Under the pieces are notes generated by a model. The model saw only the letters and a list, made by a program, of their open reading frames with translations, was not told the origin of the DNA and made no database searches. The position numbers were made by a program, and so were the translations under genes. 47,181 bases of DNA from contig QCGF01000004.1 of assembly GCA_003278175.1 (NCBI GenBank), positions 1-47,181 on the forward strand, given 5' to 3'. Source of the stretch: Prochlorococcus sp. AG-363-P15. Its GTDB lineage: Bacteria; Cyanobacteriota; Cyanobacteriia; PCC-6307; Cyanobiaceae. This document shows, piece by piece, positions 9,619-31,619 of this stretch (positions are counted from its first letter, which is position 1; the number at the start of each line of letters is the position of its first letter).

Positions 9619-10674
9619 ATGGCAAGAGTCCTTATATCAGGAGGAGCAGGCTTCATAGGGACCCATGCATCCATAGTGCTATTAGAAAATGGACATGATC
9701 TTGTAGTTATTGATTCATTTGTGAATAGTTCGCCAATAGCACTACAAAGAGTAAAAGAGATTACAGGTTTAAATGAACTTAAGGCTCAACAAAGATTAAA
9801 GGTTGTTGAAGGTGATATCAGAGACAAGGCTGCACTCCAAAAAATATTCACCGATGCAAATAATGACGGTAAAATAATAGACGCTGTAATCCATTTCGCA
9901 GGACTCAAATCCGTTAAAGATTCAATAAAAAGCCCCTTAAATTATTGGGATGTAAACGTAAACGGAAGCTGTTGCCTACTATCAGCCATGCAAGAAAACA
10001 AATGCAGAACTCTTATTTTTAGTAGCAGTGCAACTCTCTACGGTAAACCCAAATCAGTACCTATTTCCGAAACTGCCGCTATCGACCCAATTAATGCCTA
10101 CGGAAATACAAAAGCAGCTATTGAGAAGATGCTTGCAGATATATCTACTGCTGATTCTGACTGGCGGATTGCATGCCTACGATACTTTAATCCCATAGGA
10201 GCACATGCAAGTGGACTGATAGGAGAAGATCCAAGAGGCACTCCCAACAACCTTCTTCCAATAATCAATCAAGTTGCCATAGGCCACCAAAAAGTCTTAA
10301 AAATATATGGCAACAAATGGCCTACAAAAGATGGGACATGCATTCGTGACTATATTCATGTTATGGACCTCGCAGAGGGACATGCAGCAGCTCTTGATTC
10401 ACTTCTTCAAAAAGAGCATCAATTCTTAACTGTAAATCTTGGCACTGGAAAAGGGCACTCTGTTTTAGAAGTCGTCAATTCATTCGAAATAGCTACCGGC
10501 AAAAAAATCCCTTTTGAATTATCTACACCTAGATATGGTGATGTTGGAATCACCATTGCTGACCCCACAAAAGCAAAGAATCTCCTTGGATGGGAGGCTA
10601 AGCGATCACTAGTTGAAAGCTGCAAAGATGCATGGACTTGGCAGACTTCCAATATGAATGGCTATCAGCAATAA
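9619..10674 (+). CDS. galE: UDP-glucose 4-epimerase
   Basis: 351 aa; GGAGFIGTH, SSSATLYG, YGNTK, RYFNPIGAH motifs. Confidence 0.95.
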   Translation: MARVLISGGAGFIGTHASIVLLENGHDLVVIDSFVNSSPIALQRVKEITGLNELKAQQRLKVVEGDIRDKAALQKIFTDANNDGKIIDAVIHFAGLKSVKDSIKSPLNYWDVNVNGSCCLLSAMQENKCRTLIFSSSATLYGKPKSVPISETAAIDPINAYGNTKAAIEKMLADISTADSDWRIACLRYFNPIGAHASGLIGEDPRGTPNNLLPIINQVAIGHQKVLKIYGNKWPTKDGTCIRDYIHVMDLAEGHAAALDSLLQKEHQFLTVNLGTGKGHSVLEVVNSFEIATGKKIPFELSTPRYGDVGITIADPTKAKNLLGWEAKRSLVESCKDAWTWQTSNMNGYQQ

Positions 10675-10681
10675 TATTTTT

Positions 10682-12703
10682 ATGAGACTTTATTGCTTAA
10701 AGAAAAAGCTTCTAGGTAGTGCTCTACTTCTTCAGCTATTGCACTGCCAGGCAGCTAGTTCTGAGGAGATCTGGTCACCTTTCTCATTAGACAAATCTAT
10801 CAAGAACAACGATAATGCGCTCATGCTAAAGCCTAAAAATCTAGGCCGAGATTCAATAAATTCAGTACAGAGTGAAGAGCAGCTTTCTAAAGACAGCTCA
10901 AGCATTACATGGGAACTTATTCCAAGTGAGTCATCTCCAAATAACATGCCTCTGGTTTGGGAGCCAATTCTCAACTCCGGCAAAGATTTGTCAATAGAAT
11001 CAGCCAATATAGATGAAATTAGCACTGCCAGATCTAATTCTTATGATGAAGAGAAAGCGACAGAGTCACTTGTTTTATTTAAACCTAACCCTGAAGATTA
11101 TGTGCCACCCTTACGACTAGGGCTGGCAGTACCAACAGCAAATCAAGTTTCTGAACTTGAAGGTGCACGGATTAGCGCTTCACAGGTCTCCTCATTTGGG
11201 GGGGGAGAAGCAGGAGGAACAGGCAACCAAAATTATATGGCTAGGGTTGACTTGAGTGCAAATGATCGACTACAGCTCTCTGGATTTGTTTCTGAGGCTG
11301 ATGATCCACTTTATTCAAAAATAGTTGGACGGTCCAAGCAACCTGGCAATTTTTGGAGAAGTTACGGAGGAGCTATTCAATGGAAATTAATAAGTCATCA
11401 GCAATATCAAGAAGAACGAAGATATAACAAAGCTTTTGAAGTTGCCTTTTCTAGTTCTTTTGAAGGATGGGAAGTCGGAAGTGGAGGTTGCGACTCAAAA
11501 GCTTGCAAAGGACAAAATGATGCCAGTCCGAATATTTTCAATAATTCTGGAGAACGTGTTTTCACAAGAAATCTTGTTGGTTCATTAGCTCTCCCAACCA
11601 CATGGACATTCTCAACACAATGGCAGGCAAGTATTACACCTGGAGTCAGTTTCCTTCCAGGTAGCCAAGGGAAATACAAAGGAGGGGAAGGGAACTTTTA
11701 TGGCAATAATTTCTGGATTGCTGGCGGTGGTCTATGGCGACCAATCCCAGAATTAGGTCTATTTAGTTCGGTATTAGTACCTCTTGGCCCAGGATCTAAC
11801 AGCTTCAACTCAAACCTGGATTTCGAAAATGTTCCCATCTATAGCGGTGGTTTAGCATGGAATCTAAATCCAAGAATCAGCTTAGAAGGAGCGCTAACAA
11901 ATGGGTGGGGTGCAACTCCTGCCACATCGCTATTAACTTTGCCCTCGGCAAATCGCATGGGCTATTCTGCTCGTTTTGTCTACACCTATGATGCACCAGA
12001 TACACCTCAAATCGGACTAACTCGTCGCCAACGTTCCTTAGCCTCAGGTGGTCTCACTGTAAATACAGCCCTAGTGCCACCAGATAAAACTACTCAGGCA
12101 TGGACAAATATTGATAGTGAAGGAAATTTCTTTGGGTTTATGGGGAGTTCAATTTCCAATATCTTTCAACTGCAATTAACTAATGTCGGCTGGTTTAATA
12201 ACGTACCGCAAACAGATGAGCTGGCCAAAGCTTATGCAACTGATAAAGGATGGAATTGGAGAATTGGAGGTAAAGCCGTTTCCTTCTCTCCTCTTAGAGG
12301 AGCACCTTTATGGGTCGCAGGGCGTATAAGCTTAGGAAGGAATAAGGATCCCAAAAGCTATCAAGGATATGTTTTCGCAGAGTCAATCCAAACTTGGGAA
12401 GCGAACGATTGGTTAGCATTTAACCTCAATACTAAAGGTGCTTGGAGCGGGATTAGTAATCCATGGGGAGTAGGGCTAGGTGCAAATATTCAGCTGAGCA
12501 AAAAATTTCAGCTTATCCCTGAAGGGAATATTGTCATGTCAGACAAAAGTCAAAGCAATGCCACCTTGTCATTGCGATGGCTAATAAATGACTCTATGAA
12601 TATGGATGTCTACATGAGTAATGCCGCAGGTCTCCTAGATATGGGTCAACTTCTAAAATCACTAGACACACGTTTCGGAGGAAGACTTAGCCTTATGTTC
12701 TAA
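10682..12703 (+). CDS. large outer-membrane beta-barrel protein (porin-like), unknown function
   Basis: signal peptide MRLYCLKKKLLGSALLLQLLHCQAASSEE (true start probably 10682 rather than 10658), alternating Gly/aromatic strands, C-terminal ...GGRLSLMF ending in Phe. Confidence 0.75.
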   Translation: MRLYCLKKKLLGSALLLQLLHCQAASSEEIWSPFSLDKSIKNNDNALMLKPKNLGRDSINSVQSEEQLSKDSSSITWELIPSESSPNNMPLVWEPILNSGKDLSIESANIDEISTARSNSYDEEKATESLVLFKPNPEDYVPPLRLGLAVPTANQVSELEGARISASQVSSFGGGEAGGTGNQNYMARVDLSANDRLQLSGFVSEADDPLYSKIVGRSKQPGNFWRSYGGAIQWKLISHQQYQEERRYNKAFEVAFSSSFEGWEVGSGGCDSKACKGQNDASPNIFNNSGERVFTRNLVGSLALPTTWTFSTQWQASITPGVSFLPGSQGKYKGGEGNFYGNNFWIAGGGLWRPIPELGLFSSVLVPLGPGSNSFNSNLDFENVPIYSGGLAWNLNPRISLEGALTNGWGATPATSLLTLPSANRMGYSARFVYTYDAPDTPQIGLTRRQRSLASGGLTVNTALVPPDKTTQAWTNIDSEGNFFGFMGSSISNIFQLQLTNVGWFNNVPQTDELAKAYATDKGWNWRIGGKAVSFSPLRGAPLWVAGRISLGRNKDPKSYQGYVFAESIQTWEANDWLAFNLNTKGAWSGISNPWGVGLGANIQLSKKFQLIPEGNIVMSDKSQSNATLSLRWLINDSMNMDVYMSNAAGLLDMGQLLKSLDTRFGGRLSLMF

Positions 12704-14116
12704 AGGTTTAAGTTTTAATTGAATGCCATTCTGTGACCTCAATGTCAACAAGCCAGAAAGCTCAATTTCATGATTTGCATCCGGCAATAATTCATAGCGC
12801 CTAAGCAATTCAGCCAAGACCAATATTGCTTCCTGTTTAGCAAAGGAAGCGCCAGGACATTTGCGGGGTCCCATCCCAAAAGGCAGGAATGCATTGCGAA
12901 CATTAGAGTTTTCATTCTGATTCAGAAAACGTTCAGGTCGAAAGCAATTAGGGTCAGGCCAATACTTCTCATGTCGTTGAATGACCCATGGAGAAAGAGT
13001 CAAAAGAGAACCTACAGGGCATCGCCTCTTTCCTTCAGGTGCTTTCAAAGTCGTATCTGTTTGTAGTCTCTCTCGAATGAAAAAGCTCACCGGTGGATAT
13101 AACCGTAATGTCTCATTAAAAACTGCTTCGCCAAAAGGAAATTGACGTATATCATCAGGCTTAACCATCGAATCTAATTCCCGATCACTGACTACAGACA
13201 AAACCTCATTTCGCATTCTGCTCTGTACATCTGGGAAAAGAGCCAGCAACCAAGCTGCCATTCCCAAAGAACTAGCAGATGTTTCGTGTCCTGCAAGAAA
13301 TAAGAAGCAAACTTGGTCTACTAGATCATCTTCTGAAAAGCTTTTGTTAGTTTTGGGATCTTTAGCGATTATTAAAGTGTCTAAAAGGTCAATAGGCCTT
13401 ATATTATTAAGTGAATTTTCCTTATAATGGTTCAATCGATCATGAATTAAGGATTGAATCCAACTACGAATTATAGAGGCGTCACGTTTCAAACTTCGCT
13501 GGATCCAACTTTTAGGTAGCCTAAGAAATCTCATAACAAGTGCTCTTCCCGCACGTTGTTGATACCTAGAGAATGCCTTAAAGATATTGTTAGCCTCCTC
13601 TTCCTCAAGTGGTCTACTAAGAATCGTGCGAATTATTACATCTGCGGCAATCATTGTCATCTCTTCATCAATGTCTACATAATTACTTTTATCCTTTAAA
13701 TCCAAGCGATTTAGCAACGCTCTGGTAGCTTTTTCCATTGACGGGAAAACTCTCTTGAGACTTGCAACTTGAAAAGCCTGGTCAATTAAGCGGCGTTGAA
13801 TAGCCCATTCTTCACCATTAACAGAGAAAATTGCTCGTCCAATCAAAGGTTCGAGTATCCAGAGTGTATAAGGGTGCTTTGGGAATAACTCCACTTCATC
13901 GACCATAACCTTACGTACTAGAGGTGGGTCATTTACAAGGAAAACTCGTTTACCTAGTAAGTTCAATTCGCCAATAGATATACGAAAGTCCCATTCATTA
14001 AGAAGACCAAGCCATGAATTCCAGCCCCTAGCAAGCCGCCTAAAGATGTTTGATGTATAAGGTTTCGGCTCTGGCCAAGGAGGTTGATCTCCTTTTGTCT
14101 TTAGCTTGTTAGTCAT
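12662..14116 (-). CDS. cytochrome P450
   Basis: I-helix FLAGHETSASS, ExxR NETLRLYPP, heme loop FLPFGMGPRKCPGASFA; alternative start MTNKLK at 14116 (ORF to 14125). Confidence 0.95.
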   Translation of the reverse strand: MTNKLKTKGDQPPWPEPKPYTSNIFRRLARGWNSWLGLLNEWDFRISIGELNLLGKRVFLVNDPPLVRKVMVDEVELFPKHPYTLWILEPLIGRAIFSVNGEEWAIQRRLIDQAFQVASLKRVFPSMEKATRALLNRLDLKDKSNYVDIDEEMTMIAADVIIRTILSRPLEEEEANNIFKAFSRYQQRAGRALVMRFLRLPKSWIQRSLKRDASIIRSWIQSLIHDRLNHYKENSLNNIRPIDLLDTLIIAKDPKTNKSFSEDDLVDQVCFLFLAGHETSASSLGMAAWLLALFPDVQSRMRNEVLSVVSDRELDSMVKPDDIRQFPFGEAVFNETLRLYPPVSFFIRERLQTDTTLKAPEGKRRCPVGSLLTLSPWVIQRHEKYWPDPNCFRPERFLNQNENSNVRNAFLPFGMGPRKCPGASFAKQEAILVLAELLRRYELLPDANHEIELSGLLTLRSQNGIQLKLKPLEHKAKSSSETCV

Positions 14117-15224
14117 TGGAATCAATTCTTAGTCCTGCTACAAATGAAGATGGCAAGGCGACCTTTGAACAAACATTCCGCAAATACAAAAAATGAATCT
14201 CAAACTGCTTACCTAACAAGTCCCAAAATTTAACCCTAGGATTTATTTTCACAAGATCAACCAAGTCAAGTTGAGGGTAATCATCACCTGATGGCCTTGT
14301 CAGACCGCAACTCGTATAAGGATTGACACCAGCAAAACAAAGAAAGTCTTGCTTTGATGTGACATCGCGCCATGGGATGCGAGGCTCAGTTGATAACTCT
14401 TCTAAATCGTCGCGAAATAAACGAGCACCTGGATATAACGCCACATTTGCGAGATTCTGACCAAGAGTTAGCAAGCTTAACCGAGGCAGCAATGATTTTG
14501 CACAAGGATGTCGGTGCAATTCTGCAGCAAGCATCGCTAAAACGAATGAGCCACTACTGTGGCCGACCAATCTCAACTCTAATGCAGGTTTTGTTGATTC
14601 TAAATCCACCAACCAATCTGCCAATGCCTTTACTCTTTCCCGAAGGTCATGATCACGATGCTGCGCCACACGATGAGTAAACATTATTGATCTGGCCAAC
14701 CAGACGACACCAAGTTTGTTAGCAAGACGCCAAGCTTGCCAAAGAAATATCAAACCTACAACCAATCCGCTTGCAAAGCGAACCTGAGGATCAACTACAA
14801 ATGTTGCAAGTCCATCACCAATCAAACCAGCTAAGCCTAAGGCGATACCAAAAGAAAAAAACAAGAAAAGCAAAGGGTATGCACCACATAATGCGACACC
14901 AGGACAAACCTTTAAAACTTTAAAAATCAAGCCGCCTTTTAGTAAGTACCACCAAGCATATTCAGCACATTGTTTCAGTAGGACTAAAGGATTCCGAGGC
15001 CAGTTAGCCTTGGCAATATCGTCCCAATGCAAAAAGCAAAATTCAGCTAGTACATCTTCATCACCTTCTCCAATCTTTTTCAATGGCCATCGAGTTATTA
15101 GACCATTATCAATGGACTTTCCAAATCTCCACCCAAGTGGTTTAAGTTCACTCTGAAACATTCGCTTGTAATGAGTCGCACCTCTTGGATCAAAACCACT
15201 TAAGAAATAAGTACGCGATGACAT
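14109..15224 (-). CDS. membrane protein with alpha/beta-hydrolase-type lipase motif
   Basis: LRLVGHSSGSFVLAMLAAEL (GHSxG nucleophile elbow), two hydrophobic helices; likely start MSSRTYFLSG at 15224 (ORF extends to 15299). Confidence 0.65.
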   Translation of the reverse strand: MSSRTYFLSGFDPRGATHYKRMFQSELKPLGWRFGKSIDNGLITRWPLKKIGEGDEDVLAEFCFLHWDDIAKANWPRNPLVLLKQCAEYAWWYLLKGGLIFKVLKVCPGVALCGAYPLLFLFFSFGIALGLAGLIGDGLATFVVDPQVRFASGLVVGLIFLWQAWRLANKLGVVWLARSIMFTHRVAQHRDHDLRERVKALADWLVDLESTKPALELRLVGHSSGSFVLAMLAAELHRHPCAKSLLPRLSLLTLGQNLANVALYPGARLFRDDLEELSTEPRIPWRDVTSKQDFLCFAGVNPYTSCGLTRPSGDDYPQLDLVDLVKINPRVKFWDLLGKQFEIHFLYLRNVCSKVALPSSFVAGLRIDSND

Positions 15225-15272
15225 TTGAACATCACAGAATGAGGACCTAGGAGCGCCCCTTAGACTCTCATC

Positions 15273-15884
15273 ATGATTGCTATTAATGGGATCCAACACA
15301 AGAACTCAATAAGGAGGTCTGTAACTAGTGCACTCCTGTTAGGACTAATCGTAAGTCCTCCATTATCAATTAATTCAGCTATTGCAGAAAATACTGATCC
15401 AGTAGTGCGCAAAATCGATAGCGTAATAACTGCTTCTGTTCTCGTTTCTGCACCTCCAACTCAGGCTTGGGAAGTGCTCACACGATATGAATCCACTGCC
15501 CTTAGAATGCCTGACATTAGGTATGTAAAAATTATTGAACGAAATGGAAGCAAAGTAAAGCTTCAACAAACATATAAATCCTCATATACCTTTGGACTAA
15601 AAATCCCGGCCTTACTAGAAGTCGAAGAGAAAGGAAGAAGCATGATCAATTATCAACTCATAGAAGGCAATCTTATAAAGAAATTGGAAGGGAACTGGAT
15701 CCTAATACCAACTAATGACGGCACGTTAATAGCACATAGGATTGAAATTGAACCTGCATTACCAGGTTTCTTAAAGCCACTGTTTGCTAGTCGCTTCGAA
15801 AAGAACCTGAAGAATTCGATGGTGATCTTACGTCAAATAATTTTGGAGACTCCAAGGGTGCAACCCCTCGAGGCCAATCAGTAA
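15273..15884 (+). CDS. secreted SRPBCC/START-like (polyketide cyclase/dehydrase-type fold) protein
   Basis: signal peptide then SVLVSAPPTQAWEVLTRYESTALRMPDIRYVKIIER, typical SRPBCC N-terminal pattern. Confidence 0.75.
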   Translation: MIAINGIQHKNSIRRSVTSALLLGLIVSPPLSINSAIAENTDPVVRKIDSVITASVLVSAPPTQAWEVLTRYESTALRMPDIRYVKIIERNGSKVKLQQTYKSSYTFGLKIPALLEVEEKGRSMINYQLIEGNLIKKLEGNWILIPTNDGTLIAHRIEIEPALPGFLKPLFASRFEKNLKNSMVILRQIILETPRVQPLEANQ

Positions 15885-17019
15885 CTTGATATATGACTTC
15901 TCTCCACTCGACCTTTCTTAGAAGAAAAGCATTAAGAGTTGCCCAACCATCAACAATTTGACCAATAAATAAAGCACGTGCCCAACCCATAAGTGACCGA
16001 GGAGATCGCTGCATTGCTATGGACTCAATCCATAGCAATAAAACAAAGCACCCAATTTCATAAGTAGCCAGTGCTAACCAAGCACCATTAAAGAGGCCAG
16101 CAAATAATAAGGCAGTTGTGCCCATCCCATGCAACGCCACCAACGGCCAGGCAGGGTGATGAAGACGTGCTGTAAGTAGCTGACGGGACACCCAACCCGA
16201 CAGAGCTTGCAGGCTTATTCCATCTTGATGATCCACTATCAATAGTTCAGGCCTGAAAACATAACGAAGACCTAGTTCACGAAGTGGTCGAAGTAAACCA
16301 GTATCTTCACAAAAGCTATACTCCAACAATGTTTTCCAAGACCCAGCATCTATAACCTCACGGCGTACCGCCAACGAACCACCCCAAGGGATAGCCAAGA
16401 TAGTCATCATAACTAAGGCTCCTGCATTCCATACAGCCCTTGTCCAACCCAGCAAAGTATCTCTTTCAGGAACAAACCACCGATTCCCAGATACTGCACC
16501 TATGCCAGGTTGTAAGCAAGCCTGCACTAATTGAGACAACCAATCAGGCTTAACAATGGCATCAGCATCAATGAATGCAACTACTACTGTTTCATCATTT
16601 AAGTTCTCAAAGGCTTGAAGAAGTGCTGCACACTTCAGAGATCCTCTTAAAGGCCTACCTGCGAGAATTTGAAGTTTTAGATCTTTCCATGTGGGCCTAA
16701 CGGAACCAGAAAGCCTGTGTGAAGCCAAGAAAGTCTCAACAATCATTTTTGATGGATCATCAGGTGAGTCAACGACTATTTGCAATCGCCAATCACCTAA
16801 ATAATCTTGTCTAGAAATGGCTTTCAACATAGGTAAAAGACTTTCATCTGCACCACGCAGACACAAAATGACCTCAACCGGAGGCCATTTCAAAATAGGT
16901 GTCTTATCCCAAAAAATTCGTTGAGCACGCCGTCGTTTCACCTGCAATGAAAAAATTGTCACTAAAAGCACTTGCAAGACTAGTGACAAAATCAACAATA
17001 AGGAAATCCAATCCTTCAT
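15787..17019 (-). CDS. GT2-family membrane glycosyltransferase (HpnI/ceramide-glucosyltransferase-like)
   Basis: VEVILCLRGADESLLPMLKAISRQDY, AFIDADAIVKPDWL, FCEDTGLLRPLRELGLRYVFRPE, QLLTARLHHP; TM segments; start at 17019 gives an ATGA overlap with the PKS stop. Confidence 0.88.
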   Translation of the reverse strand: MKDWISLLLILSLVLQVLLVTIFSLQVKRRRAQRIFWDKTPILKWPPVEVILCLRGADESLLPMLKAISRQDYLGDWRLQIVVDSPDDPSKMIVETFLASHRLSGSVRPTWKDLKLQILAGRPLRGSLKCAALLQAFENLNDETVVVAFIDADAIVKPDWLSQLVQACLQPGIGAVSGNRWFVPERDTLLGWTRAVWNAGALVMMTILAIPWGGSLAVRREVIDAGSWKTLLEYSFCEDTGLLRPLRELGLRYVFRPELLIVDHQDGISLQALSGWVSRQLLTARLHHPAWPLVALHGMGTTALLFAGLFNGAWLALATYEIGCFVLLLWIESIAMQRSPRSLMGWARALFIGQIVDGWATLNAFLLRKVEWREVIYQVTDWPRGVAPLESPKLFDVRSPSNSSGSFRSD

Positions 17020-20000
17020 GAAGTAATTGCCAGAGAGCTGCCAAGTAAAGAGTGGCCCCATGGCTCCATTAAATCCTTAAAGTCAGGGCAATGCACATTT
17101 AACCTCTGAAGTACAGATCGAGTCATGGAACAACTAGGTCGAGCTCGAATGCCTTCGGCATTAAGTTCAGGATATGTAAGCTGTTCTGCCCCCCAACGCC
17201 TTTGAAAAAATGGTCTTAAAGGATATAAAGGGTTTTTTGAATCAGAATCAATCGCTGATAACCACTGCTCCATAGAAACAAGTTTTAGGACTTCTCCATC
17301 AGAAATAAATTGACCTAACAAGTCCTTCAACATTAAAGGTCGCGGATGCTGTAAATGAAAGCAACGACCTTTAGCCTCCGAACTCCAAGCCAAGGCAGAA
17401 ACAGCATTAGAGACATAATCAACTGGTACTAAGTCCAATTCCCAGGAGATTCGAGGGGCTTTCCCAAGTTCAAGACAGCCCTGCAGCAGCCTCTGCAATA
17501 AGTCTCCTTCATGCCAATGGCCAGTCTTTGAATGGCCTCCTATTAGAGGAGGCCTATAAATTGTTATCGGCAACCCAGATAGACCTGCCTTAGTGACAAG
17601 TCGTTCACAAACCCATTTAGTTTGTGAGTAGCCAATATATATACCATGCCAATCTTTTAAGTCATCGTCCTCAGAGATCACGCGATTGCGATATGCAGCT
17701 GCTTCGAATACCGAAACACTAGAAATTAACTCTACCCGAATAGGACTTTCAAGTGTGGCAAGTCTCAAGACTTCTCTTGTCCCACCGACATTGCTAGCAG
17801 CAAGCTGGGCATAAGATGCCATTTGACTCAACTGAGCTCCATTGTGTAGGACTCCTCCAAGGCCATGTGCAATCTTTTCAAATACATCTGAATCCAGCCC
17901 AAAAGAAGGCAGAGATAGGTCTCCAACTATTGGTTCTAATCTCTTTTCCCAAGAAGGATTCCAAAGGTCATAACGAGCAAGATTATTTTTAATTCGATCT
18001 AAGCCATTTTCCTTAGATTGAGCACGTACTAAACAACTCACGCGAAGTTCCGGCCAACGTTCTAACTGCCCAGCCAACAAATAAGCACCTAGAAACCCAG
18101 AGCAGCCTGTAATTAAGATCCGTTCACCAGGGGCTTCACATTGAGAACCAATTGGGCAAGTCCAATTGGTCTCTAACATTGCTTCTTTCGAAAGGTCCAA
18201 CTCCTCATTAGAGTGACGATCAGAATGAGGAATTATTTGTTTCAAAGATATTGCAGCAAGCCCATCAAGACTGGGGTCATCAGAAAAAGCATCAAGATCT
18301 AGACGTATCCCGAGTTCAGATTGCACGATCGCGGCAAATTCAACTGCCATCAATGAATCCAAACCGAGATTAAATAAAGAATCACTAGCGTCTATTGAAG
18401 ATGTATCCAAAGATTCATCATCAGATTCTGCAACCATTACTCTTACCAATATCTTGCGAAGCTCCTCCATCAAAACTATCTTCTGTTGAGCTTCAGGAAA
18501 TTCCTTTAATTTTGTCCAAAGACGTTCAGACGGAGATGGTCCTAAATCTTCCAACAATGCAGAGAACCAGCTCCGCTGCCTAGGCAACGATTGATTCGCA
18601 AGTTTTTTCCAATCATTATCAAGAACAGCTACAACACCTCCTCTCCCCCTTTGCAACAACCTCTCCAAACCATTTAAAGCTTTAGACGGCTCAAGCATAT
18701 GAATTCCTACGCCTTCAAAACGACGCTCCAAGCCAACAGCCATTCCATCTCCATTCCAAGGTCCCCACTGAATTGACAACCGAGTTAGCAATTCGTTCTG
18801 TTTATTGCAATAGCCATCGATTACTCCATTTGCGGCAGAATAAGCCGCTTGTCCAGGAGACCCCAACAAAGCCGCAACAGATGAGAACCCAATAAGAAAC
18901 TCCAGGCCAGGGATGTCTTGAGCCAGATCCTCGAGCCGACGCCACCCCTCTAACTTAGGCGACATGACAAAGTCAACGTCTAAATTTCTTAAATCAACAA
19001 GCGAAGTGTCATTCACTACACCAGCCGCGTGAAAAATGCCACGCAAAGGCTTTTCCGTAGGCAAGGATTGGATTTCCTGAAGAAGTAGATTATATTTTTC
19101 AGTTGATTCAATTGATTTTGACGATAAATCATAGTTAATGCATTTAAGTTCGACTCCTTTATTTCTAATTTCCTCAAGGACTCCCAATGCCTTTGTCCCA
19201 GGAGTCTCTGCAGAACGTCCTAGCAATACGAAAGAACTTGCACCTTTCTCAACCAACCAAGGAAGTAATTCCAATCCAATGCCACCTAAAGCACCAGTAA
19301 TCAGATAAGTAGCATGAGGTTGAATCGTAATAGGCTCTTCTTTGTCTGGCTGATTAATTACAACCTTCCCTACATGCCTGGCCTGCGCCATATGCCTAAA
19401 AGCATCCTCACATTTAGCCAAAGGCCAAGCTTCAATTGGGAGGTGTTTAAATAGCCCTTCATTTAGATCTTTAGTAAGTTGAAGTAGTAAGCGACGTAAT
19501 TCTGCTGGATAGGATGCTGCCACCTCCAACAAATCAAACGGAAGGTATCTCACATCAGGACGACGACTTGTAGCATCTTCTTTACTCCAAACCTCTATCT
19601 TTCCTAGCTCTAGAAAACGACCGCCTTTCGAAAGGCAACGGAAGCTAGCATCTACCCAATCACCCTTCAAGCTGTTAATAACAACATCAACACCTCGTCC
19701 ATTAGTGTCTGACAGAACTTGGTCAGCAAAATCAATTGTTCTTGAATCATATACAGCTTCGACACCTTGCTTTATCAGAATAGATTGTTTTGAGGTGCTA
19801 GCAGTTGCAAAAACACGTGCACCTGCTCGTTGTGCAACTTGAAGTGCTGCTTGGCCTACACCACCAGCCGCCGCATGAATAAGAACAGTCTCACCTGGCT
19901 TCAAGTCTGCAAGAGAATGTAATCCATAAAAAGCAGTCAGAAATGCAGTCGAAAAACTTGCCCCTTCCTCAGTACTCATACCCTTAGGCAAAGGCACGCA

Positions 20001-23000
20001 CAACTCTGCACGAGCCACTACATGGCTAGCAAGGCTTCCAATCGTAAGAGCCGCAACAACTCTCTTTCCAAGTAAATCTGGATCCACTCCAGGGCCTAAT
20101 GCAACTACACGACCAACTGCCTCTCCACCAAATGGCAATTTCACCTCATCAGAAAGGCCAAGGGAAGAAGCATGTGCATTGAGCAAACCCAAAGCGTTTA
20201 GAACATCGCGAAAATTCAGACCTGTTGCTTCAACTGCGATCTCCACTTCATTTGGCAAAAGTGAAGAAGGCCGCAAGCGACTCTTTTGCAGGCCCTCTAA
20301 ACGCCCACTTCCATCGCTTGTTATCCGAAAACGGTCGTCATCAAGTCGAGTTAATTGAGGTGTTTGCAACAACCCATCACTCCAACGAAGCTCAGAATGA
20401 TTTTCTCGTCCTCTCCAGATTTGACTCCAAGAATTTTCTGTAAGTTGTTGCACGGGATCCGAAGGGAGGTGCAATACAGTGAAGCTACATGACGAAATTT
20501 CAAGTACTGCAGTGCGTAGGAATGCCGCCATTGCATTACTTACAGGTCCTTCTCCTTCCAAAACCAATAAAAAGGATTGAATATGAGCTTCGTTGACGCG
20601 CTGCGTCAATTCTAGAAAATCACATACTGCCAGTTCAGGTTGTCCATGAGAAAGGTCTGGCCAAAAAATTATCGAGGTAGCATCTAATGTCAGGTCAGTA
20701 TCTATTGGCAATCTGTGGAGTTGTATATTTTGTGAGTCAGACCAATCCCTGAAAGAAGTTATCTTTTCATCAGTAACACCTATAAAATAAATTTGTTCCT
20801 CAGTCAAAGCCTTCTGTTCTTCAGAATCAAGCTCGAAAGGGATCCAAGAAGTTTGGAATAACTCTGGTCCGTTAAGCAAATCGTCCTTAGGTGGGAACAA
20901 AAGGTCAATCAAAGATCTAGTCAGACGTCTAAGCTTTAATCCAACAATTTGGCCAAATCTTTTCTCATTGGTCGCAAGTGTTAAGTCTGCAATCAAAGTC
21001 GATCCATCATCTTCTGAAGGCCTTAAAGCTGTATGACAACGGAATTGATTTGGGAGTGGCCATTCAGATAAAACAATCTGCTCAACTCCAATAGGCAAAA
21101 ATATTTGTCCATTCTCAATTGCCAAGTCAACACAAGCTGCAACTGTCTGAAAGCAACCATCCAGCAAACACCGGTCTGGAGCATTACAAGGCCTTGTAAT
21201 TTCAGCCCATGCTTCTCCAGAGGTTGCACATAATTCTCGAATAGAGCGATATAATGGGCCATATCTAAACCCCAATATTGCCAAGTTTCTATAAAATGTT
21301 TCTACGTCTATAAACAAGGACTCCTGTCGGGGGGGAGTAATTACAGGAATCTTTCCAAAATCATAATCCTTTCTTGAATCCATTACTAACTCGCCGTGAC
21401 GATGCCAGGCATCTTCATTAGATCCATTGCTATGGAAACTCAACACTCCATCATCAAAAAGAGCATGTATAGTTATAGGTTTGTCTGAGACCTTCAAAGC
21501 ATTGTCAAGTTGAAATGAGGAGATCTTTGTAAATTGACTACGCTGTTGTTGTAGATCTAAAGCAAGCTCCAAATATCCAGCAGCAGGAAAAACGAGGTCA
21601 TCACGCACCTTATGATCGGCCAGGTCAGGCGAATCATTTGGGCAGAGGGTCCCTTGATAATGATCGACTGGTCCAGGGATATCAAGCTTTACTAAGTTTT
21701 CAAAAGATCGGCCTTTCTCTATATGGCTACCATTCTCATCAATCTTCCCTAAGTGATTTAGCCAAAGACTTGTTTTAGAGGTTTCATCTTCATTGCGGCT
21801 CCACCAAAAACTTTGCCGAAGGAATGGGTGCCCCGGCAAGCAGACTTTTGTATAAGAGCAAGAAGAGTGAAAGGCTTCCCAATCGATTTTGTATCCCTTA
21901 CCGATCGATATTGCTAGCGCTTCTAATTGATTACGACTCGTTAAAGTCGATATATTTAATTTTAACCCCTCAAGAGAAGAATCAATTGAATGTTTAGCAG
22001 TTCCAGTTAAAAGTGTTTCACCTCTCCAGGCTGGCTCTACTTTTCCTTCAAGTTGTACTAGCAGTTCTTTAAAATCCTTAGCTACTGCAATAAAGCGATG
22101 TGAAAAAAGGCTCCTCCCTAGATTGGTACTCCCACACAAGTCATTAAGACTGAATGTTGAGTTCTTTTTAATCAGGTCTACATATCGACAAATGAGTTCA
22201 TCAAGAGCAGGTTTGGATTTAGCTGATAGACAAAGAAGGTTTAGTGATGGCTCTTCTTTTATTACTTCTTTTTTGCCTTTGCACTCATTACTTGATAAGT
22301 CACTTAAGACGACATGTGCATTAGTTCCTCCAAACCCAAACGAACTAACCCCTACTATCAATGGAGCAGAAGGATTCGGGAACGAAGCAAGCTCAGTTTG
22401 AACTTCCAAGCCTAATTCGTCAAAGCTTACAGAGGGGTTAGGCGTTTTAAAATGCAAGCTAGGAGGTAGTTGGCGCTCACGTACACACAAGGTGGCCTTA
22501 ATTAAACCTGTAATGCCAGCCACTGTTTCTCCATGGCCAAGGTTTGTCTTTACTGATCCAAGTCGACAAGCTTCTCCATTCAAGCGGCCAGCACCAAGAA
22601 CTGAACCAAGAGCACGCAACTCAATGGGGTCCCCTTGCCTGGTCCCTGTGCCATGAGCCTCAACATATTGAGTTTCTTTAGGATCAATGCCAGCCTTTTG
22701 AAACGCACTCCGAACACATGCAGATTGAGAACGTTGACTAGGTGCCGCAAGGCCTTGACTACGGCCATCAGAGTTAATAGCCGTTCCTCGAATCACAGCA
22801 TGAATTTGGTCTTGGTCTTTCATCGCCATGGAAAGAGGTTTTAGCAGTACCACTCCTGCACCTTCAGAGCGGACATAGCCATTTGCATTGGCGTCAAAAC
22901 TCTTACATCGACCATCAGGAGACAATAAACCTGCCTTACAGAAGCTCATTTGTATTCCTGGGTGAATCAGCGCTTGTACGCCACCAGCAATGGCCAACTC

Positions 23001-23603
23001 TGATTCACCACGCAAAATACTTTCACAAGCAAGGTGAACAGCTACTAAGGAAGAAGAGCAAGCTGTATCAACAGTGAAGCTAGGCCCTTTAAGGTCAAAG
23101 AAATAAGAAAGTCGATTAGCCGCAATACAACCTGTATTCCCAGGCAGAATAAATGGTTCGTTATCCGGAGTTACGAAGTCTTCACTTGATGCCCACAAAA
23201 GAGAACTGTAGTCAGAACTAGAAATGCCTATAAAAACGCCTACTGGTTTGCCACGTAAGGAATCAACAGGATGACCTGCATCTTCAATTGAACGCCAGGC
23301 AACTTCTAACAACAAACGCTGCTGAGGATCTAAACAAACAGCTTCACGTGGAGTGATGCCAAAAAAGCTGGGATCAAAGCGATCAATATCATCTAAGAAT
23401 CCTCCACGACGAACATGCTGCATCAATGGTTTTTTCGGGTCAGCATTGTAATGAAAATCCAGATCCCACCTTTCGGAAGGGACTTCAGTGATCACTTCTC
23501 TTCCCTCAGAAAGAATATCCCAGAACTCCTCTGGAGTGTCTATTCCTCCAGGCAGACGACAACCAATCCCAACAATTGCAATAGAGTCGTGGTTAGACAT
23601 CAA
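17016..23603 (-). CDS. type I polyketide synthase: KS-(AT absent)-DH-ER-KR-ACP-thioester reductase
   Basis: KS: VDTACSSS, EAHGTGTRQGDP, NLGHGE. DH: HKVRDDLVFP and DGCFQ. ER: LIHAAAGGVGQAALQVA. KR: ITGALGGIG, FSSVAALLGSPGQAAYSAAN. ACP: LGLDSL. TR: ILITGCSGFLGAYLL, YSQTKW. No GHSxG acyltransferase segment found. Confidence 0.95.
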   Translation of the reverse strand: MMSNHDSIAIVGIGCRLPGGIDTPEEFWDILSEGREVITEVPSERWDLDFHYNADPKKPLMQHVRRGGFLDDIDRFDPSFFGITPREAVCLDPQQRLLLEVAWRSIEDAGHPVDSLRGKPVGVFIGISSSDYSSLLWASSEDFVTPDNEPFILPGNTGCIAANRLSYFFDLKGPSFTVDTACSSSLVAVHLACESILRGESELAIAGGVQALIHPGIQMSFCKAGLLSPDGRCKSFDANANGYVRSEGAGVVLLKPLSMAMKDQDQIHAVIRGTAINSDGRSQGLAAPSQRSQSACVRSAFQKAGIDPKETQYVEAHGTGTRQGDPIELRALGSVLGAGRLNGEACRLGSVKTNLGHGETVAGITGLIKATLCVRERQLPPSLHFKTPNPSVSFDELGLEVQTELASFPNPSAPLIVGVSSFGFGGTNAHVVLSDLSSNECKGKKEVIKEEPSLNLLCLSAKSKPALDELICRYVDLIKKNSTFSLNDLCGSTNLGRSLFSHRFIAVAKDFKELLVQLEGKVEPAWRGETLLTGTAKHSIDSSLEGLKLNISTLTSRNQLEALAISIGKGYKIDWEAFHSSCSYTKVCLPGHPFLRQSFWWSRNEDETSKTSLWLNHLGKIDENGSHIEKGRSFENLVKLDIPGPVDHYQGTLCPNDSPDLADHKVRDDLVFPAAGYLELALDLQQQRSQFTKISSFQLDNALKVSDKPITIHALFDDGVLSFHSNGSNEDAWHRHGELVMDSRKDYDFGKIPVITPPRQESLFIDVETFYRNLAILGFRYGPLYRSIRELCATSGEAWAEITRPCNAPDRCLLDGCFQTVAACVDLAIENGQIFLPIGVEQIVLSEWPLPNQFRCHTALRPSEDDGSTLIADLTLATNEKRFGQIVGLKLRRLTRSLIDLLFPPKDDLLNGPELFQTSWIPFELDSEEQKALTEEQIYFIGVTDEKITSFRDWSDSQNIQLHRLPIDTDLTLDATSIIFWPDLSHGQPELAVCDFLELTQRVNEAHIQSFLLVLEGEGPVSNAMAAFLRTAVLEISSCSFTVLHLPSDPVQQLTENSWSQIWRGRENHSELRWSDGLLQTPQLTRLDDDRFRITSDGSGRLEGLQKSRLRPSSLLPNEVEIAVEATGLNFRDVLNALGLLNAHASSLGLSDEVKLPFGGEAVGRVVALGPGVDPDLLGKRVVAALTIGSLASHVVARAELCVPLPKGMSTEEGASFSTAFLTAFYGLHSLADLKPGETVLIHAAAGGVGQAALQVAQRAGARVFATASTSKQSILIKQGVEAVYDSRTIDFADQVLSDTNGRGVDVVINSLKGDWVDASFRCLSKGGRFLELGKIEVWSKEDATSRRPDVRYLPFDLLEVAASYPAELRRLLLQLTKDLNEGLFKHLPIEAWPLAKCEDAFRHMAQARHVGKVVINQPDKEEPITIQPHATYLITGALGGIGLELLPWLVEKGASSFVLLGRSAETPGTKALGVLEEIRNKGVELKCINYDLSSKSIESTEKYNLLLQEIQSLPTEKPLRGIFHAAGVVNDTSLVDLRNLDVDFVMSPKLEGWRRLEDLAQDIPGLEFLIGFSSVAALLGSPGQAAYSAANGVIDGYCNKQNELLTRLSIQWGPWNGDGMAVGLERRFEGVGIHMLEPSKALNGLERLLQRGRGGVVAVLDNDWKKLANQSLPRQRSWFSALLEDLGPSPSERLWTKLKEFPEAQQKIVLMEELRKILVRVMVAESDDESLDTSSIDASDSLFNLGLDSLMAVEFAAIVQSELGIRLDLDAFSDDPSLDGLAAISLKQIIPHSDRHSNEELDLSKEAMLETNWTCPIGSQCEAPGERILITGCSGFLGAYLLAGQLERWPELRVSCLVRAQSKENGLDRIKNNLARYDLWNPSWEKRLEPIVGDLSLPSFGLDSDVFEKIAHGLGGVLHNGAQLSQMASYAQLAASNVGGTREVLRLATLESPIRVELISSVSVFEAAAYRNRVISEDDDLKDWHGIYIGYSQTKWVCERLVTKAGLSGLPITIYRPPLIGGHSKTGHWHEGDLLQRLLQGCLELGKAPRISWELDLVPVDYVSNAVSALAWSSEAKGRCFHLQHPRPLMLKDLLGQFISDGEVLKLVSMEQWLSAIDSDSKNPLYPLRPFFQRRWGAEQLTYPELNAEGIRARPSCSMTRSVLQRLNVHCPDFKDLMEPWGHSLLGSSLAITS

Positions 23604-24721
23604 TCAGACCCCATTATTAAATGCCTAATACCATCGCGGTTACCTATCAAAGGTTTAAGGCAATATGTTTGTTTGACTAATTGATATTGCTCCGGTTGAG
23701 CCAACCAATTCTGGAGTATGGCAAGCAAGTCTTTAGGCGTATCAATAGCGATGTCTATACCGCGATCAAAAAAATAACGTCTAGCAAGTAACTCCTGTGG
23801 CATAGTGGTTCCAAAACCATTGAAGATCAATACACATCCGGATGCCAGGGCCTCTGTTGCTGTCCTGGCACCAGGTCTTCCAACCATTGCCCAGGCACAA
23901 TGATAAAGCTTTGCCATTTCTTTTGGAGATTGAAATCCACGAGCCTCAACAGATAGTTGCGGATAAAGGGAACTCCATTTAGCCAATTCTTGCTTAACAC
24001 TCACACGCCGACCACATAAAGCAATAACCCTTATCTGTCCTGCAAGTGGAAGTAATGCATTTAACAAGTCCAGATGATTATTAGAGCCATTGGCACCACT
24101 TCCAAGGACAAGAAGTGGCAATGAATCGTCCGATAAATTTTCAGGGAGAGGTTTCTCGAGAAGTCTCTCGAAAGAAGGTTCAAACAAAGGTCCTAATATT
24201 GAGATGCGACTTTTTACATAGCCTCTGCCACGTACTTCCTTGGCCACTTCAGGCGTAAGCGCCCAAAAATAATCAGCCTTTTTAGTTACCCAATTACGGC
24301 TAAACCCAAACCCACCATCAAGTTCAGTACAACACGTAATTGTGCGCAATGATGGCCCAAGGACTCGCTTTGCAAGGTCAAAATGGCCACGATTTATGTG
24401 GGGGTGAGTAGAAATAATTAGTTCAGGCTTGTAAGTCCTTAACAAGCGTATTAAATAATTACGTCCAAAAATAACTGTGCCAGGCTTCACAAGATCCTCA
24501 AACTCAACCAAACGCCAGTAGATCTGATGGAACCAAGGACAATATTTCTGTATCCAGTTGTAAAGATTGACACTTAAACGCATTACGAAACTTGATTTCT
24601 CCAATAGGTGCTCAACTAAAACTGAACCATTGGGGTCCCAATGGTTCAGCCAACTCTTTATTGAATAGGCTGCTGCATCATGAGCAGTTCCACCACTTGA
24701 AGTAAAAATCAGAACACGCAT
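23600..24721 (-). CDS. MGDG-synthase-like / GT28-type glycosyltransferase
   Basis: RVLIFTSSGGTAHDAAAYSIKSWL N-terminal lipid-acceptor motif, IISTHPHINRG, GRPGARTATEALASGCVLIF donor-binding motif; 4-bp overlap with PKS start. Confidence 0.87.
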   Translation of the reverse strand: MRVLIFTSSGGTAHDAAAYSIKSWLNHWDPNGSVLVEHLLEKSSFVMRLSVNLYNWIQKYCPWFHQIYWRLVEFEDLVKPGTVIFGRNYLIRLLRTYKPELIISTHPHINRGHFDLAKRVLGPSLRTITCCTELDGGFGFSRNWVTKKADYFWALTPEVAKEVRGRGYVKSRISILGPLFEPSFERLLEKPLPENLSDDSLPLLVLGSGANGSNNHLDLLNALLPLAGQIRVIALCGRRVSVKQELAKWSSLYPQLSVEARGFQSPKEMAKLYHCAWAMVGRPGARTATEALASGCVLIFNGFGTTMPQELLARRYFFDRGIDIAIDTPKDLLAILQNWLAQPEQYQLVKQTYCLKPLIGNRDGIRHLIMGSD

Positions 24722-24734
24722 ACTTTTAATTCAT

Positions 24735-26105
24735 TCATCTGTAATTAAAAACACCTAAGTTTTTAATTTGGGACCAACTAGCAAGAGCCAGCACCCATCC
24801 AATTCCGCCTAAAGCCACTGCAATTACACGCCCATCCCCTACTCCAAGAGAAGATTGAACCCAGAAAGGTAGATATGACCAATTTAAGATGGGCGTCAAA
24901 ACACGATCAACTGCAATTGAAACTGTCATGAAGGCTAGTAACCGTGCAGACCATTCAAATGTATAGCGCAATGCAAAAACCTTAGGTAAGTCTTGCTCAG
25001 GAGCAAGTTGACTCCATGCTTGTTGAATGGATGACATTACTATTGGCAACCCAAAAGAAAAAAACAATACCCCTAAGAACCAAATTAATGAATGATCCGC
25101 AAAAGACTGCAAACCAGCCCCCATCAAAATCAATGATTGAATCAAAAGCACAATGAACCAAACCCGATGCCAATAAATTCCAATCTTCTTTTGCCACGCA
25201 AAAAATCCGAGCAAATATCCCAATCCCGCCACGATCAGAACATAGGCCATTTGTTCAGTGCCATAGGCAACTGCCACCCAAGCAGGGAAAAGAACCTCAG
25301 TAGCAGCATATGCAAAGGCTACTGAGCTACTTAGCACTAGAGCAATTCGAGCCAATGGATTTGTCCTCCACAAAGACTTAACCAAATTCAAGCCTTGAAC
25401 CAAGTGGACTCCTTTCCAAGGCTTAGCCTCATGTGATCTATCAACAAATTTGCTTGACCATGGAGCCGCCAATACACAAATCATTGCAAGGAAAAAGCTG
25501 CAACCATCAATGGTCAAGACCCCTCGCAAACCAATCAAGCCAAAAAGCCAACTGCCAAAAAATGGAGCCATAGTTAAGACCAAGCTATCTGTAGTAGCAA
25601 AGAGACCATTTGCACGAATAAGTTCATTCCTATCAATCATCAAAGTCGGGATCAACGTAGAAAAGCTCAAGATCAAGGTTGCTTCAGCCATAGCCGCTAA
25701 TCCTTGAACAAACAATAAAATTGATAGAGACGGAGTACTAGTCTCTCTAAAAAGCAATAGTGCAAGTGTGAACGTACAAAAAGCGCCCACGCCATTTGCA
25801 GTAAGCATTACTCTCCTTCGTGACCAAATGGCCATACGGTTAGCAAGAAGTGGAAGTACAAAAATTCTTGCTAGCTGGACCACTACAGCTACAAGCGCAA
25901 AATCAGCTAGAAGTTGAGTTTTAGAAAAAAGCCAAAGCCCTATCCCATAAAGACTGGTTTGAGTACCAAGATTTGAAATGAGCTGGGCGATCCAAAGCCA
26001 AGTAAAAGTTTTTTTAGCTTCTCTAGAGAAGTTCTCTTGACCAACAGTAGAAATAACTGGCTGAGACCCATTTGAGATCTCATTAGAACTCGAGTCTGGC
26101 ATCAC
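24735..26105 (-). CDS. MFS transporter
   Basis: 456 aa, ~12 hydrophobic helices, LPLLANRMAIWSRRRVMLTANG loop motif of MFS exporters. Confidence 0.88.
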   Translation of the reverse strand: MMPDSSSNEISNGSQPVISTVGQENFSREAKKTFTWLWIAQLISNLGTQTSLYGIGLWLFSKTQLLADFALVAVVVQLARIFVLPLLANRMAIWSRRRVMLTANGVGAFCTFTLALLLFRETSTPSLSILLFVQGLAAMAEATLILSFSTLIPTLMIDRNELIRANGLFATTDSLVLTMAPFFGSWLFGLIGLRGVLTIDGCSFFLAMICVLAAPWSSKFVDRSHEAKPWKGVHLVQGLNLVKSLWRTNPLARIALVLSSSVAFAYAATEVLFPAWVAVAYGTEQMAYVLIVAGLGYLLGFFAWQKKIGIYWHRVWFIVLLIQSLILMGAGLQSFADHSLIWFLGVLFFSFGLPIVMSSIQQAWSQLAPEQDLPKVFALRYTFEWSARLLAFMTVSIAVDRVLTPILNWSYLPFWVQSSLGVGDGRVIAVALGGIGWVLALASWSQIKNLGVFNYR

Positions 26106-30255: not shown

Positions 30256-30927
30256 ATGAACCTATTCAAGGGTGAAAAATATTTGGAACAAACCCCCGTT
30301 TTGATTTTGATGACCAGATGGCCTGGAGCAGGCCGTTGCAAAGCAAGACTGGCGTCAAAGATTGGATCTAAAAATGCAGCCTACATCCAATCTGTATTGA
30401 TAAAACATACAATAACTGTCGCAAAAGCTATTGAGGAAACAGGTTTAGCAGAAGTCCAACTTGCTATGAGCGGTATTTCGTCAAAGGCTGCCAAGAGATG
30501 GGGAGAACAGCAAGGGTTAAACAAAATCTTTCATCAAGGAGAAGGAACACTTGGCTTAAGAATGCGAAAGCAAGTACTTCGAGTACAAAGGTCACAACCA
30601 AATACTCGAGCTGGAAGGAGCACCATCCTTATAGGGACAGATCTGCCCGGCCTTTGCAAACTAGATCTAATTAAAGCAATCATGTCACTAGAGAATAACG
30701 AAATTGTCCTAGGGCCGTCTCTAGATGGAGGATATTGGTTAATTGGCCTGACAGGGAAACTTGTCAGGCCTGTCGTCACCTGGCCTTTTTACGATATGCC
30801 TTGGGGGACAAGTCAGGTTTTGATGCGAACCATCCTAAGAGCTAAAACTGAAGGGGCTCACTACGATTTTTTACGTGAGCAAAACGATATTGACCAAATA
30901 CAGGATCTTTCCCCATGGCAAGGCTAA
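30256..30927 (+). CDS. DUF2064/TIGR04282-type glycosyltransferase-like protein
   Basis: MTRWPGAGRCKARLA, GTDLPGL, LGPSLDGGYWLIGL motifs. Confidence 0.85.
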   Translation: MNLFKGEKYLEQTPVLILMTRWPGAGRCKARLASKIGSKNAAYIQSVLIKHTITVAKAIEETGLAEVQLAMSGISSKAAKRWGEQQGLNKIFHQGEGTLGLRMRKQVLRVQRSQPNTRAGRSTILIGTDLPGLCKLDLIKAIMSLENNEIVLGPSLDGGYWLIGLTGKLVRPVVTWPFYDMPWGTSQVLMRTILRAKTEGAHYDFLREQNDIDQIQDLSPWQG

Positions 30928-31619
30928 ATAAATCACAAGCACTAAGCATTGTCATCCCCTGCCTGAATGAGGCCAATAACCTTCCACTCTTAATTGCTGA
31001 CCTACAAAGATGGCCTTATAAAATAGAAATTTGTGTTTGCGATGCTTGCAGTACTGATTTATCTGTTCTAGTTGCCGAACTAGCTGGAGCAAAAGTTATT
31101 CAAAATCTAGAAGCAAATCGGGGGAAGCAACTTCATTGCGGAGCATGCAATACAAAAGGAGACTGGCTGCTATTTCTTCATGCAGACTCAAGAATGACAA
31201 GGAGCTGGCCAAAAACAATAGAGAAAATAATTAACCAGAAAGAATCAGAAGATAGTGCATGGTTTTTCGATTTTAGAATCCAAGGAAGTGGACTTTGGCT
31301 AAAATTTTTGGAAATAGCTGTAGCAATAAGAAGTAATATATTTAAAAGACCATATGGGGATCAGGGCTTACTAATAAAAAGATCCCTATACAAAAAATTA
31401 AATGGCTATAAGCCACTTTACATAATGGAAGATCTTGATTTAATCATAAGGATATCAAAACAATCCAAACTCAAAAGGGTAGGACTGCCTATATATATCA
31501 ATGGGCGGAGCTGGGAAAATATTAGTATTTTTTCAAAAGCTCTAAAGAATGCTAGTCTCCGAAGACGTTGGATGAAAGGGATAAGTTCAAGGAGCTTATC
31601 TATAGACTATTATAAATAA
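30915..31619 (+). CDS. TIGR04283-type GT2 glycosyltransferase
   Basis: LSIVIPCLNEANNLPLLIADLQ, HADSRM, RPYGDQGLLIKRSLYKKLNGY; overlaps the preceding gene by 13 bp. Confidence 0.87.
   Translation: MARLNKSQALSIVIPCLNEANNLPLLIADLQRWPYKIEICVCDACSTDLSVLVAELAGAKVIQNLEANRGKQLHCGACNTKGDWLLFLHADSRMTRSWPKTIEKIINQKESEDSAWFFDFRIQGSGLWLKFLEIAVAIRSNIFKRPYGDQGLLIKRSLYKKLNGYKPLYIMEDLDLIIRISKQSKLKRVGLPIYINGRSWENISIFSKALKNASLRRRWMKGISSRSLSIDYYK

Follow-up and report, generated by a model that had tools for sequence, protein, structure and literature searches.

Genes at the locus

The window, by which we mean the whole 47,181-nucleotide stretch of DNA analysed here, is contig C4 of a 1.11-Mb draft genome that is 57% complete. 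The genome is of the low-light Prochlorococcus type; its two phycobilisome-family genes match the number in other Prochlorococcus-type genomes, against 6-13 in the Synechococcus-type genomes searched. The block of interest comprises the following genes.

10658..12703, plus strand: outer-membrane beta-barrel-like (porin-like) protein, its gene tail to tail with that of the P450; C-terminal Phe in the alignment
12662..14116, minus strand: cytochrome P450 (PF00067, 247 bits)
14109..15224, minus strand: membrane alpha/beta-hydrolase-like protein with invariant GHSSG, D and H
15273..15884, plus strand: secreted SRPBCC/START-like protein, antisense and interleaved (PF03364, 43.4 bits)
15787..17019, minus strand: membrane GT2 resembling enzymes that glycosylate lipids (HpnI / ceramide glucosyltransferase-like), by Pfam GT2
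17016..23600, minus strand: AT-less type I PKS, KS-DH-ER-KR-ACP-TR, 2194 aa from its ATG, by Pfam and our own domain HMMs
23600..24721, minus strand: MGDG-synthase-type (GT28-like) lipid glycosyltransferase (PF06925, 42.9 bits)
24735..26105, minus strand: MFS exporter, first gene of the operon, its position kept in most relatives (PF07690, 72.8 bits)

All the genes that the preliminary description placed at 12662-26105 are present, with the coordinates, order and strands it gave. Its limits were too narrow, as the conserved block reaches the porin-like gene. The 13 bp reported between the MFS and glycosyltransferase genes are confirmed, and the ATGA overlap between the PKS and GT2 genes holds provided that GT2 begins at the ATG at 17019. 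The junction between the MGDG-type glycosyltransferase and the PKS had been read as a 4-bp overlap, which needs a TTG start at 23603; with the PKS ATG at 23600 it is a TGATG stop/start. Promoter and terminator scans did no better than shuffled sequence. Outside the block, at 30256-31619, a DUF2064 gene and an overlapping GT2 gene lie near dnaA; genomes G004 and G001 share this conserved pair.

Both glycosyltransferases resemble enzymes that act on lipids. The MGDG-type protein passes the PF06925 gathering cut-off of 25 bits, and its PDB relatives are MGD1 and the processive diacylglycerol glucosyltransferase UgtP (E about 1e-13). The GT2 protein has invariant D98, D165xD167 and E252D253, and its PDB profile matches include ceramide glucosyltransferase; it falls under the curated HpnI cut-off (TIGR03472, 67 bits vs 310). 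The MFS protein is weakly similar, below cut-off, to H+-antiporter/Mef (macrolide-efflux) models. The best solved relatives of the P450 are CYP4B1 and CYP102, making it CYP4/CYP102-like.

The SRPBCC protein carries an N-terminal hydrophobic segment (residues 20-38). The hydrolase has no Pfam or NCBIfam match; S248 of its GHSSG motif, D312/D318 and H369 are invariant in nine orthologues. Its AF2 model, built from two sequences, is weak (pLDDT 53), and Foldseek with that model gave no match at E<=1e-3, the weaker matches including esterases and lipases. The 10658-12703 protein has no Pfam match and its AF2 model failed (pLDDT 25), so we call it only a putative barrel. PDB profile searches for the hydrolase, porin-like and SRPBCC proteins returned nothing firm.

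A polyketide synthase that lacks an AT domain

The PKS is a type I reducing enzyme with KS, DH, ER, KR and ACP in a single chain, their active sites intact, followed by a thioester reductase that exceeds the curated cut-off for reductive release (TIGR01746, 264 bits vs 213). Its parts, all on the minus strand, are as follows.

22299..23591, minus strand: KS (residues 5-435), with C182, H317 and H357 intact
21684..22298, minus strand: excised-AT site (residues 436-640), where the KS-AT linker is joined to the post-AT linker; both flanks align
20904..21683, minus strand: DH, with H664 and D815
19350..20297, minus strand: ER, by Pfam, our own HMMs and residue check
18744..19316, minus strand: KR, with S1575, Y1588 and N1592
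18237..18461, minus strand: ACP, with S1750
17064..18125, minus strand: TR, thioester reductase (PF07993, 188.8 bits), with Y1992 and K1996

Neither Pfam (PF00698) nor our own HMM finds an AT in the PKS, which is thus not a cis-AT enzyme; the preliminary description of the protein overlooked this absence. On the PfaA model the KS scores 307 bits against a cut-off of 1010, and so does not belong to the PUFA-synthase type. All 14 catalytic positions checked are invariant across the 18 AT-less orthologues, where covered. Comparison with two relatives of the same genus puts dN/dS at about 0.13-0.14, with dS near saturation. The invariant residues and the low dN/dS together argue that the PKS is maintained rather than decaying.

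Orthologues from 46 loci plus the window were sorted with our own HMMs into three kinds: AT-less single proteins (n=18); AT-bearing single proteins with the architecture KS-AT-DH-ER-KR-ACP-TR (n=16, including G074, whose ACP-TR lies in a separate frame); and split systems with a KS-AT-DH-ER-KR-ACP protein (n=12), 11 of which have a companion KS-KR-ACP-TR protein in the stretch fetched. The AT is present in orthologues such as G025, G082 and G188. The AT-less proteins group as a single clade in the KS (98/94), ER (91) and TR (99) trees, and in the KS tree this clade is nested among AT-bearing orthologues. The window KS groups with its own AT-bearing orthologues, in a tree that included no trans-AT reference KSs. 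The distance from KS to DH is 198-208 residues in 17 of the 18 AT-less proteins and 169 in G358, compared with about 500-580 in AT-bearing ones; in the window the linker region spans about 205 aa against about 507 aa. Since both linkers still align, the shortened distance is explained by one excision of about 300 residues.

In the split loci (L038, L039 and others) the KS-KR-ACP-TR companion is likewise without an AT (by Pfam on two, by our own HMM on 11); its KS belongs to a separate deep clade and its partner protein has an AT. The split pair could add a final beta-hydroxy unit and then release a 1,3-diol. We rejected the idea that the P450 makes up for the beta-hydroxyl that disappeared along with the split systems' KR-TR protein, as the split genomes G088 and G257 also have a P450 nearby.

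A whole-genome search for the AT family (Acyl_transf_1) gave exactly one match in 17 of the 18 AT-less genomes, the closed genomes G002, G038, G041, G279 and G352 among them, and no match in the eighteenth, the fragmented G150 draft. AT-bearing genomes encode FabD in addition to the PKS AT, except G284, where the search picked up the PKS AT alone. In the window's genome the sole AT gene sits in plsX-fabH-fabD-plsC, with translations identifying FabH on one side, a PlsC-like protein on the other and the PlsX end upstream. A classical trans-AT arrangement is not seen, there being no dedicated discrete AT in or near the cluster and only FabD in the genome. With no other AT in 17 of the 18 AT-less genomes, FabD most likely loads malonyl onto the PKS in trans, and this is the simplest reading of the gene content. 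The single-AT argument is drawn from the closed relatives, as the draft that holds the window reaches only 57% completeness. In barnesin biosynthesis, experiments support FabD as the partner of an AT-less PKS (PMC13096860).

Conservation and inheritance of the block

A check for the block across picocyanobacteria, proposed in the preliminary description, finds it in dozens of genomes, a spread which that description had missed, and absent from some close relatives. PKS carriers number 48 of 400 genomes in a family sample (E<=1e-150). The order MFS, MGDG-type glycosyltransferase, PKS, GT2, SRPBCC, hydrolase, P450 and outer-membrane-type protein is kept in most fused-type loci at 37-77% identity, as are the place and strand of the SRPBCC gene. 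The recurrence of gene order and strand across many genomes is confirmed to be far beyond chance.

A same-genus genome, G001 (93% complete), provides an empty site in which exactly the seven block genes are missing (L119 8782-11578, G001:C11). There the genes run DnaA - GST - small membrane protein - porin - GalE - HisS, in agreement with the window on either side of the block, and the porin-like gene is kept (43%), about 125 bp from the small membrane protein gene.

In raw counts that ignore kinship, the MGDG-type glycosyltransferase is present in 32 of the 38 PKS carriers among 53 genomes and in none of the 15 non-carriers; for the hydrolase the figures are 22 of 31 carriers and none of 24 non-carriers; the porin-like gene is present in 30 of 32 glycosyltransferase-bearing carriers, none of six PKS carriers that lack the glycosyltransferase and four of 15 non-carriers. 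A phylum-wide draw of 386 genomes contained the glycosyltransferase solely in the window's family (5 genomes). The scan of genome contigs gave one named locus, in Prochlorococcus AG-409-M05, and the search for phage carriage gave only a distant UgtP-like match (24.5%).

The block varies among carriers. G279 and G358 have the PKS with neither P450 nor hydrolase nearby, so these two steps are not universal, and the loci of G082, G405, G319a, G284 and G150 are incomplete or divergent. In the closed genome G279 (G279:C1, L089) the PKS is AT-less and the MFS gene has moved downstream of GT2. Three loci of genus g35 (L086, L087 and L088) have the first two genes swapped, with the glycosyltransferase before the MFS, and a GalE-like gene upstream. 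In the closed genome G164, also of genus g35 (G164:C1, L128 9841-11423), the glycosyltransferase (63%) is followed by PKS residues 2-145 only, and the other block genes are absent from the 20-kb stretch fetched; this locus is probably a decaying copy.

Proposed pathway and relation to known systems

Thioester reductase domains release their chain as an aldehyde or alcohol, and full reduction followed by such release gives a saturated product of that kind. We propose that the PKS is a former cis-AT enzyme whose AT was lost once, in an ancestor common to the carriers among LLVII-type Prochlorococcus and to one marine Synechococcus group. Having no loading module, its KS would accept an acyl chain from fatty-acid synthesis, and housekeeping FabD, as the only AT found, would malonylate the enzyme's own ACP in trans. 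Each extension could then be fully reduced by KR, DH and ER, in one or possibly several rounds, before the TR frees the chain. The MGDG-type glycosyltransferase would add a hexose to the hydroxyl, the P450 may hydroxylate the chain and GT2 may supply a second sugar. Outward movement would be predicted to involve the MFS protein together with the secreted SRPBCC and the outer-membrane-type proteins.

An exported glycosylated fatty alcohol is what this gene set, inherited together, points to: the PKS is reducing and carries a TR for release, both glycosyltransferases are of lipid type, and a P450 and an exporter accompany them. Full reduction with TR release, the lipid-acting relatives of the glycosyltransferases and the P450 relatives CYP4B1 and CYP102 all suggest an alkyl glycolipid, and the best-supported product would be a fatty alcohol that carries sugar, may be hydroxylated and reaches the cell surface by export. 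On balance we favour an exported alkyl glycolipid, made by a FabD-fed PKS that lost its AT once, in a vertically inherited picocyanobacterial cluster. A more far-reaching version is tentative and falls a little short of an even chance: that a single natural excision made a cis-AT PKS dependent on FabD, and that the product is an undescribed class of surface alkyl glycolipid, tied to the malonyl supply of fatty-acid synthesis, in Prochlorococcus and marine Synechococcus.

P450s and glycosyltransferases are a common tailoring set in natural-product clusters. The presence of both here, together with an MFS protein that weakly resembles drug exporters (the macrolide-efflux models), makes it possible that the cluster produces a soluble glycosylated polyketide, a signal or allelochemical secreted by the MFS protein, rather than a membrane or surface lipid. 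We regard this as unlikely: both glycosyltransferases are of the lipid-acceptor type, a fully reducing PKS with reductive release is expected to yield an alkyl chain, and a secreted protein of lipid-binding type co-occurs with an outer-membrane-type protein. A different doubt attaches to the source of malonyl. The interaction of FabD with the PKS is proposed from genome content, and the TR could by itself reduce a loaded acyl chain, so that the PKS might draw on another malonyl source, or perform no extension and use only ACP-TR, which would turn a chain from fatty-acid synthesis into a released alcohol. None of the 18 AT-less proteins departs from the catalytic residues of KS, DH, ER and KR, which speaks for an extension step that remains in use, and FabD is the sole AT family member encoded; we think this alternative rather improbable. 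Much the same small weight goes to the notion that the glycosyltransferases and the PKS make separate things, with the MGDG-type enzyme acting on diacylglycerol or another lipid and an unrelated PKS product. The closest characterised relatives of this enzyme do act on diacylglycerol, and G164 retains it beside a PKS remnant of about 145 residues. Against this, it is found only with a PKS (in G164, the remnant), in the same operon and with overlapping or near-adjacent genes; six PKS carriers lack it, yet every genome examined that has it, except G164, has the PKS.

The parallel with heterocyst glycolipids calls for separate comment, as the block shares with hgl islands the logic of a PKS chain, reductive release, sugar transfer and export, and heterocyst-glycolipid analogues are known in cyanobacteria without heterocytes (PMC11804610). 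An hgl island is defined as a cluster of homologues of at least seven heterocyst-glycolipid biosynthesis genes (PMC11804610). By Pfam/NCBIfam composition the block, with one PKS, two glycosyltransferases, MFS, P450, SRPBCC and hydrolase, falls outside this definition. The gene families differ: the PKS is of another type, export is by MFS and there is no ABC exporter pair in the block, the glycosyltransferase is of MGDG type and there is no nitrogen-fixation context. No non-heterocytous hgl island in the published survey contains hglT, and neither Prochlorococcus nor Synechococcus is named in the survey's main text (PMC11804610). True homology to hgl islands is therefore very improbable. The likeness raised in the preliminary description stands as a functional analogy at most, and kinship does not, given the different composition and a KS that is not of the PUFA type.

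Prochlorococcus is usually regarded as poor in PKS chemistry. A PKS-glycolipid-export block that purifying selection maintains in LLVII-grade cells and in marine Synechococcus related to them, and that is missing in some close relatives, would offer a testable lipid marker for lineages of the deep euphotic zone. The pairs of AT-less and AT-bearing orthologues amount to a natural before-and-after experiment for PKS engineering, indicating where FabD can replace an excised AT with the enzyme kept.

Among characterised proteins, the MGDG-type glycosyltransferase shares with MGD1 and UgtP the PF06925 fold family, as judged by sequence, and is unlike them in sitting in a PKS operon. GT2 shares catalytic motifs and membrane segments with the HpnI / ceramide glucosyltransferase-like enzymes, although it scores below the HpnI cut-off. 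The barnesin BrnF-type systems, trans-AT/AT-less PKSs served by FabD, are similar in having no AT in the PKS, no dedicated AT in the genome and FabD as the probable donor (PMC13096860). Unlike them, the window PKS descends from a lineage of cis-AT orthologues and has shed the AT while both linkers stayed in place; it is fully reducing, with in-line ER and TR, rather than an NRPS hybrid.

The preliminary description had named close homologues with a characterised product as evidence against its reading; the literature searched contains none, nor any paper on the cluster apart from the likely case of CF-20. CF-20 is an uncharacterised PKS family of marine and freshwater clade-d picocyanobacteria (Calteau et al. 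2014, PMC4247773), and the window's cluster family may be the same. As far as the main text of that paper goes, the two are alike in being a widespread picocyanobacterial PKS cluster with conserved gene order, thought to be vertically inherited and assigned no product. They differ in that the terms AT-less and trans-AT do not occur in that main text, whereas the window PKS is AT-less (PMC4247773). On this comparison, the family is probably CF-20.
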